Assembly: GCA_019636675.1 (NCBI GenBank)
Contig: JAHBXC010000005.1
Span: 1-64,000, forward strand
Reading direction: 5' to 3'
Source of the DNA: Phycisphaeraceae bacterium
GTDB taxonomy: Bacteria > Planctomycetota > Phycisphaerae > Phycisphaerales > UBA1924
Length of the DNA: 64,000 nt
Under the pieces are notes generated by a model, which worked only from the letters and a program-made list of their open reading frames with translations, made no database searches and had not been told where the DNA came from. The position numbers and the translations under genes were made by a program. Below are positions 52,229 to 60,092 of the stretch, in pieces (positions within the stretch are counted from its first letter, which is position 1; each line of letters starts with the position of its first letter).

Positions 52229-52334
52229 CCGTCACACCCGCGCGATCGCCCCGCCCCTCTACCCGGCGGACGCGACCCGCGCGTTCTCATAAAGACACGC
52301 TCACGCCAGACCAATCTTGAAGAGAGCCCACCCC

Positions 52335-53288
52335 ATGAGGAGCACCACCGTGTCTTCCATCAGCGCCATCGTTCTCGCCGCAGCCGTCTCCATCGGCTGC
52401 CAGTCCTCCACCCAGCAATCCTCCACCGGCGGGTCCGCCGTCCTCGCCTCGTCGTCCTCGACGCAGGCCGCGAAAACCCCCAGCGCGACCGGCGCGTCCC
52501 TCAAGCACCCGCTCGCCCCCGAGTTCGCCAAGCCCGGCTTCCTCACCCTCCTCGAGGACGGCCGACTCTGGATCTTCAAGGACGGCTCCAAGGAGTTCGC
52601 TGAGTTCCAGAAGAACGGCGAGCTCGCCAAGCACGTCGTCTACCCCGGCCAGGGCCCCGGACGCATGACCCTCAAGGCCCCCGACCGCGACACCGTCCTC
52701 GCCTACCTCTGCTCCAAGCCCGGCTACATCGCGATCACCGAGAACGGACGCACCTGGATCTTCCGCGACGGCTCCAAGGAGTTCGCCGAGTTCCAGAAGA
52801 ACGGCGAACTCGCGAGGCATGTCGTCCGCCCCGCCGCCGGACCCATGCGCTCGACGCTCCGCGCGCCCGACGCAGAGACCCTCGACTCCTGGATGTACTC
52901 CAAGCCCGGCTTCGTCACGCTGCTCGAGGACGGTCGACTCTGGATCTTCAAGGACGGCTCCAAGGAACTCGCCGACTTCCGCAAGCACGGCGAGCTCGCC
53001 AAGCACGTCGTCCGTCCCGGCGCCGGCCCCAACCGCATGACCGTCAAGGCGCCCGACGCGAGCGTCATCGACGAATACATGCTCTGGCAGCCCGGCTTCA
53101 TCACCTTCATGGAAGACGGGCGCCTCTGGGTCTTCAGGCAGGGCGCCAAGGAGTACGCCGACTTCCAGAAGCACGGCGAGCTCGCCAAGCACGTCGTCCG
53201 ACCCGCCGCCGGACCCAACCGCGTCACGATCAAGGCCCCCGACAGCGAGACCGTCAACGCCTACCTCGCCGTCGCCCTCGCGAACTGA
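52335..53288 (+). CDS. exported protein of four 62-residue repeats
   Basis: This 317-residue protein has a signal-like N-terminus and a Cys at position 22 (VSIGC), a weak lipobox. After a Ser-rich linker come four repeats with an exact period of 62 residues, starting at 66, 128, 190 and 252. Each has PGF(L/V/I)T, EDGRLWIFKDGSKE, a GELAKHVV stretch and a closing KAPD motif. I do not know this repeat. The pattern of short strands with GRLWIF suggests a propeller-blade or WG-like repeat. It follows pstB by 106 bases on the same strand and ends in a strong terminator, so it may belong to the pst regulon. Confidence 0.85.
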   Translation: MRSTTVSSISAIVLAAAVSIGCQSSTQQSSTGGSAVLASSSSTQAAKTPSATGASLKHPLAPEFAKPGFLTLLEDGRLWIFKDGSKEFAEFQKNGELAKHVVYPGQGPGRMTLKAPDRDTVLAYLCSKPGYIAITENGRTWIFRDGSKEFAEFQKNGELARHVVRPAAGPMRSTLRAPDAETLDSWMYSKPGFVTLLEDGRLWIFKDGSKELADFRKHGELAKHVVRPGAGPNRMTVKAPDASVIDEYMLWQPGFITFMEDGRLWVFRQGAKEYADFQKHGELAKHVVRPAAGPNRVTIKAPDSETVNAYLAVALAN

Positions 53289-55042: not shown

Positions 55043-55098
55043 GCATGAATGCGGCGACACCGGGTCGTGGCATGAGGGCAATCTTCGGGAGAACTCAG

Positions 55099-55398
55099 AT
55101 GAAAGCAACGATTCTCGCCTCCATCGGCGTCCTCGGCTTCGCGCTTGCAGGGTCTGTCTGGGCATGCTCGCCTGCCTGAGGAAATCAACCGAACGGCCAA
55201 GCCGTTTGCACGGTGAATGTCCCTGATCACGGGTCAATGATCATCGAGTGCACTGGTCCCGCATGCCCGGACGGTAAGGTTGTCGGTCCGTGCTTCATCA
55301 GTTCGGGTGGAATCGTCTTGAGTTGTGGCTGCCACTGCTATGTGCCAGACAGCCAAGGGCCGGGGGGGTTCGATCCTGATCCAGGCGAACTTCCCTGA
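55099..55398 (+). CDS. small exported Cys-rich protein, interrupted by one in-frame TGA
   Basis: An ATG at 55099 preceded by GGGAG opens a signal peptide MKATILASIGVLGFALAGSV followed by WACSPA. The 27th codon is TGA (55177-55179). The same frame then stays open for 72 further codons to a TGA at 55396, coding a Cys-rich stretch (QAVCTVNVPDHGSMIIECTG, then PACPDGKVVGPCF and SCGCHCYV) with seven more cysteines. TGA is one base from the Cys codons TGC/TGT. Twelve bases after it is a perfect six-base stem (AACGGC with GCCGTT, loop CAA). It could be a selenoprotein, a nonsense mutant, or a sequencing error. No relative was recognised. Confidence 0.5.
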
Positions 55399-55422
55399 TC
55401 TCGATGTGATTTGGAGCTCCAT

Positions 55423-56208
55423 GTGAAAGCGCGCTCTCGCACCATTGCTGCAACCTTCTTTGCAATGCTAGGTGTCGCTGCTGCTGCCTGGGTCGTTGCA
55501 GGCCCATCGATCGTGAGGTGGTGGAACAAACCAACGCCGACACCCATCGAATATCATGCCGTCGATACGGAACTCGAAGCGCCGGAGTACGCCACACTGA
55601 CTTCGGCTATTCAACTACTTCCAGCACTTGATGCCCTCGCATCGACGCTGCAAAGCGCGTCCATACCGAGCAATTCGAACACACTGACAAGTTCCGATCG
55701 CGCCGCGATCGCGCGCGAGACCGCCGCCGCCCTGCGCCCCCTTCTCTCCGGCTCGAAAGACGACTACCTCGCGTGGCTCCGCGCCTCCGGCGCGTTGCAC
55801 CCGATCCTCGACGATGAGAGCAACGCGTCGTCCGAACAGTTCATGATCATCTGGACGCACAACGGGTCCGGGTTCGCTGGCTCACCAATTGACGCCGCCA
55901 AACCACGCATCAGAGTGCGCTACCTCAACGGCCGGGGCCCCTTCGAAGCGCCGGAAGACGAACTGCGCTTTGGGCATTATGCGGCCTCGAACCGCTTCCC
56001 CCGACTCCCCGCAGAGGGCCAGCGCATGGACGCGATCGTCGAGAGCATTGTGCCTGTCATGCATATCAACAAAACGACCGGCGCCGCGTCCAACACCATG
56101 CTGGGCTTCTGGATGGCGCGCCACCGCCCCGGCGACCCGTGGCGCCTGTGGCGCATCGCGGTCTACGACTTTGAGCGCCCCAGCCGCGCCTTCGTACCCG
56201 TGTACTAA
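55423..56208 (+). CDS. hypothetical exported or membrane-anchored protein
   Basis: This 261-residue protein starts at a GTG with GGAG six bases upstream. One hydrophobic segment near residues 9-29 (AATFFAMLGVAAAAWVVAG) anchors a soluble domain that contains an Ala-rich helix region (SDRAAIARETAAALRPLLSG) and a C-terminal strand set (NTMLGFWMARHRPGDPWRLW). No family was recognised. The first third is less GC-rich than the rest. It lies 24 bases after the Cys-rich ORF and 10 bases before a pseudopilin gene, so all three may be co-transcribed. Confidence 0.75.
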   Translation: MKARSRTIAATFFAMLGVAAAAWVVAGPSIVRWWNKPTPTPIEYHAVDTELEAPEYATLTSAIQLLPALDALASTLQSASIPSNSNTLTSSDRAAIARETAAALRPLLSGSKDDYLAWLRASGALHPILDDESNASSEQFMIIWTHNGSGFAGSPIDAAKPRIRVRYLNGRGPFEAPEDELRFGHYAASNRFPRLPAEGQRMDAIVESIVPVMHINKTTGAASNTMLGFWMARHRPGDPWRLWRIAVYDFERPSRAFVPVY

Positions 56209-56953: not shown

Positions 56954-57378
56954 TGTCGCGCTTCGCCGTCCCGACTCTCCGCCTGCGGCATTCTCGTCAA
57001 CCGCTCATGCGGTTCTCCGGTGCGCTGCTCTCGGCATTCGTCCCCTTCGTGATTGTCTGCGTCGTAACTCTCCCTCTCTCACATCATCTGAGTGATCGCT
57101 ACCCGTGGCTGCTTCCTGCGCTCGCGATCACACAATTCACGCTCATTTTCGTCATGTGCGCTGCCCTCGCCGTCGGCTCGTGGGTCGCGCTGCGCACGCC
57201 CCTGGAGACCCACGCCCTCGCCGCCGAGCCCGACCGGCGCGACCGCGCCACGCTCCGCCCCCTGCCCCCCGTCACGCCCCGGTACTGGTTCGCGTGGGGC
57301 GCGCTCGGCGTCCTCGGCGCGCTCGCGGCCGTCGGCGCGATCGTCTACTTCGTCGTCGAACTGCGCACGCTGGCGTGA
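56953..57378 (+). CDS. small three-segment membrane protein
   Basis: This 141-residue protein starts at an ATG that shares one base with the pseudopilin stop. Hydrophobic segments are near residues 22-45 (SGALLSAFVPFVIVCVVTLP), 53-77 and 112-137. A basic N-terminus is followed by a Pro/Arg-rich cytoplasmic loop (EPDRRDRATLRPLPPVTPRY). Function unknown. Tight overlap with the pseudopilin gene suggests a joint role, for example in pilin-like export. Confidence 0.72.
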   Translation: MSRFAVPTLRLRHSRQPLMRFSGALLSAFVPFVIVCVVTLPLSHHLSDRYPWLLPALAITQFTLIFVMCAALAVGSWVALRTPLETHALAAEPDRRDRATLRPLPPVTPRYWFAWGALGVLGALAAVGAIVYFVVELRTLA

Positions 57379-57505
57379 CACCCACCGCCGAGAGGCGTTC
57401 GGGGGCTCTTCCGGGGCATCCGGGGGCTTTGCCCTCAGAAAGTTCTTGACCCGGCGCCCCGATTCCGGGACAGTGGCTCCGTCCCCGGGGGCCAAGGAAC
57501 CCGTC

Positions 57506-58291
57506 ATGCGCCACGCGATCGCTTCGTTCACGCTCCTCCTCGCCGCCTGCTCCGCGTCGGCGCACGCGCAGTCGTTCAACATCGAGTTCGGCGATCCCGC
57601 GTCGTCGCCCTCGTCGTCGTACGCCGCCGCCGGGCTGCCGGGGGTGTGGAACACCTTCCAGGTGATGCCCTTCGGCGAGCGCCAACCCCTGGTCGACCTG
57701 CAGGGGAACGCCGTCGCCGCCAAGATCTACAACATCGGGGGCACGGGCCTTATTTCCGCGCCCAACGCCGGCGCGAGCGCCGACGACGCCAACCTCCTCA
57801 ACGACGCCCTCACCAGCCAGAACAACCCGCTCGACGCGTGCATCTTCTTCCAGGACATGCTCAACGGCGACTACGAGGTCACCCTCTACGCCATCACCCC
57901 GGCGCAGCCCTCGTCCATCAACCGCGTCAGCGTCGACTTCGCCACCCCCGGCCCTACCTTCATCGGCGGCGCCTGGCCCGGCGCGCACGAAGAGGGCGTC
58001 ACCTTCGCCCGCTTCCTCGTCACCGTCACCGACGGACGCATGGGCATGCACTCGGGCGTCCCCGGCTCGTCGGTCCTCTCCTCGCTCAACGGCATCCAGA
58101 TCCGGCGAATCGTCGACTGCCCCGGCGACACGAACGGCGACGCCGTGGTCAACTTCGCCGACCTCAACGCGGTGCTCAGCGCGTTCGGCCAGAGCGGCCC
58201 GGGCCTCCCCGGCGACGTGAACGACGACGGCGTCGTGAACTTCGCCGACCTGAACATGGTGCTGGCGAACTTCGGGGCGTCGTGCGACTGA
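57506..58291 (+). CDS. secreted protein with C-terminal dockerin-like module
   Basis: This 261-residue protein has a signal peptide (LLLAACSASAHAQ) and a beta-rich body (SFNIEFGDPASSP, later DYEVTLYAITPAQPSSINRV). Its C-terminal pair of calcium-loop repeats is DTNGDAVVNFADLNAVLSAF and DVNDDGVVNFADLNMVLANF, ending in GASCD. This is the dockerin-like ending common in Phycisphaerae, thought to attach secreted proteins to the cell surface or a scaffold. The last 120 bases are nearly identical to the end of the next gene. The ATG at 57506 is the natural start. Confidence 0.87.
   Translation: MRHAIASFTLLLAACSASAHAQSFNIEFGDPASSPSSSYAAAGLPGVWNTFQVMPFGERQPLVDLQGNAVAAKIYNIGGTGLISAPNAGASADDANLLNDALTSQNNPLDACIFFQDMLNGDYEVTLYAITPAQPSSINRVSVDFATPGPTFIGGAWPGAHEEGVTFARFLVTVTDGRMGMHSGVPGSSVLSSLNGIQIRRIVDCPGDTNGDAVVNFADLNAVLSAFGQSGPGLPGDVNDDGVVNFADLNMVLANFGASCD
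58172..58291 (+). repeat. dockerin cassette, first copy
   Basis: This 120-base stretch equals 59973-60092 except for two silent third-position changes. The two genes are otherwise unrelated upstream. Confidence 0.9.
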
Positions 58292-58358: not shown

Positions 58359-60092
58359 ATGCAGCGCTTATTCCTGTCAGCATTGCTCGGCGGCACAATC
58401 TTGTTCACCTCGGGGTTCGCCATCGCGTCGTGGCTTGAGCCACCGTCCGAGCGCCGGTCGTTCGCGCCCCCGCTCGGCGACCAGACGCCGCGGGTGATCA
58501 CCGCGGACCCCGCGCTCGGCGAAGAAGGCATCGGGATCGGCATGGTCATCAGCGACGGCCTGCTTCTCGCGAGGGCGACGCGGCCCAGCGCATCGCCGTC
58601 GAGCTGGATAGCGCTCTTTCGCAGAGTCGAGAATGACTGGGTCCGCATCGGCGAGGTGCACCCTCCGGCGCAGACAACAACCTTCGCGAGTTCCTTCGTG
58701 GTGTCGCCGGGGGGACTGCTGGCGCGGAGCCAGTTCGGACAGTCGAACCGCCTGCAGATCTTCGAGCGCGATGGCGACTCATTGACTTTCCTCTCGGTGC
58801 TCCCGCTGCCGCCGGTTGCCACCCTGGACTTCGGGCGCGCCGCGGCGGTGTCGGACGATCTCTCGCTCATCGCGATCGGGGATCCTGCGTTCTTCGGCTC
58901 GCGGGGGCGCTTGTGCATTTACGAACGAGACGGGAACTCCTTTACCCTCAAGGAAACCATCTCGCATCCTCTGGCGACGCAGCCCGACTCGCGGTTCGGG
59001 TGGCCCGTGGCGATCGATGGGGACCGCGTCCTCGTCGGCAGCCGCATCGCGCAGAATGTTCCGCACCCGATCGCTGGAGCGATCCATGTCTACGAGCGGG
59101 TCGACGGCGTCTGGACCGAAGTGGGCCAGATCACCTCCCCCGCGGGCCAGGTGACCGCGCTGGATGCGCCGGCGCTCCTGGCGATCGCCGGAGATGACAT
59201 GGTGGTGTCGTCGCCGGACCAGAACTTCACGACGGTCGGCGCCCCGGAGTTGCGCGGATTCGGGTCGGTGCTCGCGCTCCGCCGGATCAACGGCGAATGG
59301 TCGCAGCCACAATTCATCAGGCCCCTCGACCCTCTGCCCAACCCTCAGCAGTTCGGAAACCAGTTCGGGCACGCGATCGCGATCCACGACGATTCGATGT
59401 TCATCAAGCATGAATCGATGCAGCCCGGGGTGTCCGCCAGCGTGCTGCGCTACAGACGCGGCGCCGATCGATGGATGCAGGCCGAGCGGCTCGACATCAC
59501 GGCGCAGAACCCGAGCACCCTTCTCGCGCATCTCGCCGCCGGCGAGAGCGGTCTCGCTGTCAGCGGCTTGCCCGGTTTCGGCCCCGCGATCGTCTGGATG
59601 TTCGAAACGCCGGTGGCCCCCGCCTTGCCCTCCGGCTTCGCGCTCGTCTCGCCGCCCGACGGGGCCCTCGCCCCCAGGGGCGCCCAGACCTTCACATGGA
59701 CGCAGCCCTTCGAGGCCGAAACCGCCGTGCTGAGGATCGCGCGCGACGCCGGATTCACCGATATCGTCGTGTCGCTGCCACTCCACGCGACCGAACTTCA
59801 CGCCTCGGTGATGACCGCGGGGCTGCCCCCGGGAGAGCGGCTGTTCTGGAGCGTCTTCGCGGGGAACGACCTCGGAGAGACGAGCGCGGGCAACGGTCCC
59901 AGATCGTTCGTCACCCTCCCGGCCGGCGACGCCAACGGGGATTGCGCCGTGAACTTCGCCGACCTGAACACCGTGCTCAGCGCCTTCGGCCAGAGCGGCC
60001 CGGGCCTCCCCGGCGACGTGAACGACGACGGCGTCGTGAACTTCGCGGACCTGAACATGGTGCTGGCGAACTTCGGGGCGTCGTGCGACTGA
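58359..60092 (+). CDS. secreted propeller-like protein with dockerin-like module
   Basis: This is a 577-residue exported protein. An N-terminal signal helix (FLSALLGGTILFTSGFAIAS) is followed by FG-GAP-like repeats (VSDDLSLIAIGDPAFFGSRG, FGWPVAIDGDRVLVGSRIAQ, FGHAIAIHDDSMFIKHE), typical of integrin-alpha-like beta-propellers. A fibronectin-III-like domain (about 445-515, FTWTQPFEAETAVLRIARDA) comes next. The end is the same dockerin-like pair as in the previous gene (DANGDCAVNFADLNTVLSAF and DVNDDGVVNFADLNMVLANF). It probably acts in surface attachment or as an extracellular scaffold component. Confidence 0.87.
   Translation: MQRLFLSALLGGTILFTSGFAIASWLEPPSERRSFAPPLGDQTPRVITADPALGEEGIGIGMVISDGLLLARATRPSASPSSWIALFRRVENDWVRIGEVHPPAQTTTFASSFVVSPGGLLARSQFGQSNRLQIFERDGDSLTFLSVLPLPPVATLDFGRAAAVSDDLSLIAIGDPAFFGSRGRLCIYERDGNSFTLKETISHPLATQPDSRFGWPVAIDGDRVLVGSRIAQNVPHPIAGAIHVYERVDGVWTEVGQITSPAGQVTALDAPALLAIAGDDMVVSSPDQNFTTVGAPELRGFGSVLALRRINGEWSQPQFIRPLDPLPNPQQFGNQFGHAIAIHDDSMFIKHESMQPGVSASVLRYRRGADRWMQAERLDITAQNPSTLLAHLAAGESGLAVSGLPGFGPAIVWMFETPVAPALPSGFALVSPPDGALAPRGAQTFTWTQPFEAETAVLRIARDAGFTDIVVSLPLHATELHASVMTAGLPPGERLFWSVFAGNDLGETSAGNGPRSFVTLPAGDANGDCAVNFADLNTVLSAFGQSGPGLPGDVNDDGVVNFADLNMVLANFGASCD
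59973..60092 (+). repeat. dockerin cassette, second copy
   Basis: This copy matches 58172-58291 over 120 bases with two silent differences. Confidence 0.9.

Follow-up and report, generated by a model that had tools for sequence, protein, structure and literature searches.

An in-frame TGA in a gene for a small exported cysteine-rich protein of a Phycisphaeraceae bacterium is almost certainly a premature stop

In the 64,000 nucleotides of a Phycisphaeraceae bacterium analysed here (contig JAHBXC010000005.1, positions 1 to 64,000; termed the window), an in-frame TGA interrupts a gene whose product would be a small, secreted, disulfide-rich protein. This TGA is almost certainly a plain premature stop, whether a fresh mutation or a base error. 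That the gene encodes a new selenoprotein is extremely unlikely, since no machinery for reading UGA as selenocysteine was found in the genome. A real and recent nonsense mutation in the first gene of a cassette is the most likely origin of the stop (probability roughly two in three), because the cysteines behind the TGA still match those of an intact homolog. An initial annotation of the sequence had left three options, a selenoprotein, a recent nonsense mutation or a base error; the first falls away, while the other two are upheld by intact homologs and by a second, intact cassette in the same genome. The stop-interrupted gene is itself ordinary, and closing the selenoprotein candidate spares wasted effort. 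A separate and moderately interesting by-product is the cassette, in which an exported cysteine-rich small protein is encoded next to a membrane-anchored partner and a pseudopilin, and in many loci also next to MauE, a presumed helper in disulfide formation.

The interrupted frame and its intact homolog

Positions 55099-55398 of the forward strand form a single frame that translates as MKATILASIGVLGFALAGSVWACSPA, a stop at codon 27, then GNQPNGQAVCTVNVPDHGSMIIECTGPACPDGKVVGPCFISSGGIVLSCGCHCYVPDSQGPGGFDPDPGELP and an ordinary terminal TGA (Table 1). Translation confirmed the coordinates and counts of the initial annotation, which had described 100 codons running from a signal peptide to a domain with seven cysteines, broken only by a TGA at codon 27. 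One further cysteine lies just 5ʹ of the TGA, and the protein has eight cysteines, an even number, without counting codon 27. TGA serves as a working stop in this DNA, because six of the seven checked window genes end in it, in line with what the annotation had said of other genes here. A GTG at 55213, 3ʹ of the stop, was rejected as an alternative start; its product would lack a signal peptide, and no ribosome-binding site was seen before it.

Table 1. Features of the interrupted gene and the two cassette genes behind it, in window coordinates
Feature	Position	Strand	Evidence
Ribosome-binding site GGGAG of the interrupted small gene	55087..55091	+	Direct sequence reading; 7 nt 5ʹ of the ATG
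Codons 1-26: predicted signal peptide, then CSPA, the first four residues of the mature small Cys-rich protein (exported)	55099..55176	+	Translation; hydrophobic stretch, and ATG with ribosome-binding site by scan
Premature TGA, codon 27	55177..55179	+	Translation; "1 TGA" inside a genome search match
Remainder of the frame: 72 codons, 7 Cys, normal TGA end; homologous to the intact G070 protein	55180..55398	+	Translation; pairwise alignment
Hairpin AACGGC-CAA-GCCGTT, once proposed as a SECIS; judged a chance structure	55192..55206	+	Fold and stem statistics
Second cassette gene: membrane-anchored protein, about 261 aa	55423..56208	+	GTG start, GGAG at 55413-55416; no Pfam family
Third cassette gene: pseudopilin-type protein with N-terminal methylation motif, 244 aa	56219..56953	+	PF07963, 18.6 bits (just below the Pfam cut-off); TIGR02532, 17.9 bits (above its cut-off of 16.3)

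Direct searches with the 99-residue frame against 60 relatives, 84,980 species genomes, viral contigs and plasmids returned only the window itself or chance matches, and the small protein found nothing in Pfam, NCBIfam, PHROGs or the PDB. An intact homolog was reached only by way of the conserved downstream gene. This homolog is a small exported protein of genome G070, encoded in the same gene order as in the window, and it matches the part behind the TGA at 36% over 53 amino acids (E 7e-11, in a single pairwise comparison). A profile built from the two sequences added no homolog beyond G070, which is the one clear homolog of the window protein. The interrupted frame is read from this alignment as a real gene, or the relic of one, beyond chance, because the part behind the TGA aligns with the intact G070 protein and because, in both genomes, the next gene downstream encodes a membrane protein of the same homologous family.

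The same comparison bears on codon 27. In an ungapped alignment, between the first two shared cysteines, G070 carries a glycine opposite codon 27 and a cysteine one residue later, and a cysteine could be placed opposite the codon only with two compensating gaps. In other members of the family, this region is a variable linker. The homolog alignment that the initial annotation had proposed for this codon thus shows no column of cysteine or selenocysteine among the few sequences compared, only one of them a clear homolog, and on these sequences codon 27 is judged not to be a conserved cysteine position.

Third-position GC content behind the stop is 0.60, versus 0.92-0.95 in five neighbouring genes. 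The intact small genes of other cassettes are likewise low, at 0.50-0.85, and composition is for that reason uninformative for dating the mutation.

Located four codons into the predicted mature part, the TGA would end translation, and the window copy would yield just a 26-residue signal-peptide stub, with the small protein lost. That this stub is itself a functional product is highly improbable; a start, a ribosome-binding site and a stop are all present, but only about four residues would be left after signal cleavage, against about 80-120 amino acids in the clear intact relatives. The two downstream genes are intact and probably still expressed, the anchored protein having a ribosome-binding site of its own.

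UGA decoding capacity and the hairpin

The genome that contains the window (G000) is assembled in 8 contigs and is 98.6% complete. A search of it for selA (PF03841) gave no match; the same search matched E. coli, used as a positive control, and seven of the 163 related genomes, and hence works in this clade. For selB (TIGR00475), no match exceeded the cut-off, and the best match below it is EF-Tu. The single weak selD match (TIGR00476) also fell under the cut-off, and its protein sequence was read as thiamine-monophosphate kinase. Two matches to the tRNA-Sec family (RF01852) lie just over the cut-off and were rejected as tRNA-Ser, their anticodons UGA and CGA pairing with serine codons. A UGA suppressor tRNA was sought as well, and none of the 45 tRNAs detected in the genome has a UCA anticodon, hence none that would read UGA. 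The initial annotation had suggested looking for the sel genes, and with selA, selB, selD and tRNA-Sec all undetected in a 98.6%-complete genome, its selenoprotein option fails. A sel locus hidden in the unassembled remainder is unlikely but not impossible.

The tRNA inventory includes one unusual member, a long-variable-arm tRNA at L174:109-211 on the minus strand (G000:C1:64008-64110). Its anticodon was read as UGG (proline), and it was missed by ARAGORN and scores 48 bits against the Rfam tRNA model. An ordinary tRNA-Pro with UGG is additionally present in the genome.

Among the 163 genomes of the taxonomic family, strong selA matches were found in seven, distributed over four genera (G008, G090, G022, G134, G028, G147 and G148). 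By this marker, the capacity to decode selenocysteine seems to be scattered unevenly over the family. No selA match was found in G070, the genome of the intact homolog.

The perfect stem of six base pairs with a loop of three nucleotides, noted in the initial annotation as starting 12 nt past the TGA, is indeed present. However, it is at chance level and is not a proper SECIS element. The 70 nt from position 55171 fold at -18.9 kcal/mol, versus a mean of -17.3 for shuffled sequences (z = -0.57), and 53 of 200 shuffles fold as well. Moreover, a perfect stem of 6 bp or longer, with a loop of 3-10 nt, lies within 45 nt for 13% of the 674 same-strand TGA triplets in the window; when the loop is required to be exactly 3 nt, the fraction is 1.8% of the 674. 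An Rfam search over the hairpin region gave no match. Bacterial SECIS elements carry a guanosine in the loop (PMC1088965), whereas the loop here is CAA, which agrees with the annotation's own remark that no conserved loop form was obvious. In GC-rich DNA, the presence of a hairpin after a TGA does little to support a selenoprotein.

The window gene does resemble bacterial selenoproteins in having an in-frame TGA beside cysteine codons with a hairpin close behind, and the trait occurs in the family. Yet it differs from them in lacking sel genes and a tRNA-Sec in its genome, cysteine homologs at the position in question, where the sole clear homolog has glycine and other sequences vary, and a guanosine in the loop of a hairpin that chance would supply; the homolog's own genome is also without a selA match. 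Almost no credence is left for a TGA read as selenocysteine under a SECIS.

The cassette and its damaged copies

The interrupted frame opens a cassette with the order small exported Cys-rich protein, membrane-anchored protein and pseudopilin, preceded in some loci by MauE. The gene for the anchored protein (55423-56208) has distant homologs, many of which are directly preceded by a small Cys-rich gene with a signal peptide. When ten sequences of the anchored protein were combined into a profile, it found this gene in 57 of the 163 family genomes. In a draw of 400 genomes from the order, it matched 51, only one of them outside the family, and by this count the cassette seems largely confined to one bacterial family. 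In total, 76 anchor genes were analysed. A pseudopilin-type gene directly follows the anchor gene in 62 of the 74 loci with enough downstream flank (the window copy counted as having this order), and a MauE gene precedes it in 28 of the 66 with enough upstream flank. MauE was not found upstream of the window copy or of the G070 copy.

Uninterrupted small Cys-rich genes were found by scan at 38 loci, two of which (L066 and L080) were judged spurious, leaving about 36. One of them belongs to a second cassette, L106, which lies on the minus strand of the window's contig at about 121.4-123.2 kb (G000:C5), approximately 66 kb from the window copy. It comprises genes for MauE, the small exported Cys-rich protein in intact form, an anchored protein and a pseudopilin. 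Several loci, among them a group from a single genus (g91), contain the anchor and pseudopilin genes but no visible small gene. The small gene is judged to diverge fast and seems to have been lost repeatedly. The plain-stop reading is supported both by the intact G070 homolog in shared gene order and by the intact small genes at equivalent sites, the second cassette included.

Four small-gene loci are damaged, each in a different way, by a TGA, a TAG, a frameshift or decay. The TGA copy is that of the window. At L035:547-1228 (G077), two tandem small Cys-rich genes lie before the anchor gene; an in-frame TAG breaks the first immediately after its signal peptide, and the second is intact. The L117 (G166) copy has its signal peptide in one frame and its Cys-rich part in another, and L082 (G013) looks like a decayed cassette in which the anchor gene also has a TAG. 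Lesions of different kinds in a minority of loci suggest recurrent loss and not programmed recoding.

These loci also bear on a sequencing or assembly base error, in which case the organism's gene would be intact and the TGA not real. This explanation is a distinct but lesser possibility. The frame is otherwise perfect on either side of one triplet, intact relatives are the rule, and an error would give the same picture as a real mutation. However, the assembly is contiguous, the neighbouring genes that were checked are intact, and small genes are damaged in other cassettes too, although some of those copies come from fragmented assemblies, where the damage could itself be a base error.

Read-through without selenocysteine, with ribosomes passing the TGA at a low rate to give a little full-length protein, is very unlikely. 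The frame past the stop still resembles the intact homolog, and the first L035 copy has its TAG at a comparable site just behind the signal peptide. Against this, no UGA-reading tRNA occurs among the 45, nearly all family members are without a stop at this site, the lesions differ in kind, and a plain stop accounts for the data alone. It would be a long shot to regard the stop behind the signal peptide as a tolerated low-level read-through site that keeps the exported Cys-rich protein very scarce, with L035 as a second instance. The preferred reading, a recent nonsense mutation, makes the window gene resemble young bacterial pseudogenes, which likewise have one premature stop, a well-kept frame and intact counterparts at the corresponding site of other genomes; nothing decisive distinguishes it from them.

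An intact cassette would make a small exported multi-Cys protein, a membrane-anchored partner and a pseudopilin. In the intact relatives, the small protein would be exported via its signal peptide, its disulfide folding may be aided by MauE where MauE is present, and its site of action may be the envelope, with the other two cassette products as partners. Maturation of Cys-rich proteins in association with MauE is represented by the mau cluster of methylamine dehydrogenase and by MauE-bearing candidate RiPP clusters, and MauE has been speculated to form the disulfides of methylamine dehydrogenase (PMC7794033). When the systems are compared on the adjacency of MauE and a small protein, many of the related cassettes, including L106, are similar in placing MauE (PF07291) directly before a small Cys-rich exported protein. 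They differ in that the cassette partners are a membrane-anchored protein and a pseudopilin, and in that the window copy is without MauE upstream.

For the anchored protein, a structural model (mean pLDDT 68) had no Foldseek match at E 0.001. VIA-align gave Z scores of at most 6.8, mostly to NTF2-like folds and some to VirB8-type folds, and the weak resemblance of the model to NTF2-like or VirB8-like domains is only a hint. No description of such a cassette was found in open-licence papers, and the cassette is taken to be undescribed, the literature result being weak evidence of novelty.

Neighbouring genes

Upstream of the cassette, positions 52317-53288 encode an exported protein of 323 amino acids with four similar repeats of the type KPGFLTLLEDGRLWIFKDGSKEFAEFQKNGELAKHVV. 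Downstream, the genes at 57092-58291 and 58359-60092 encode adjacent proteins with nearly identical dockerin-like repeats at their ends. An identical 62-base block occurs in both genes, at 58184 and at 59985, and points to a duplication or to gene conversion.
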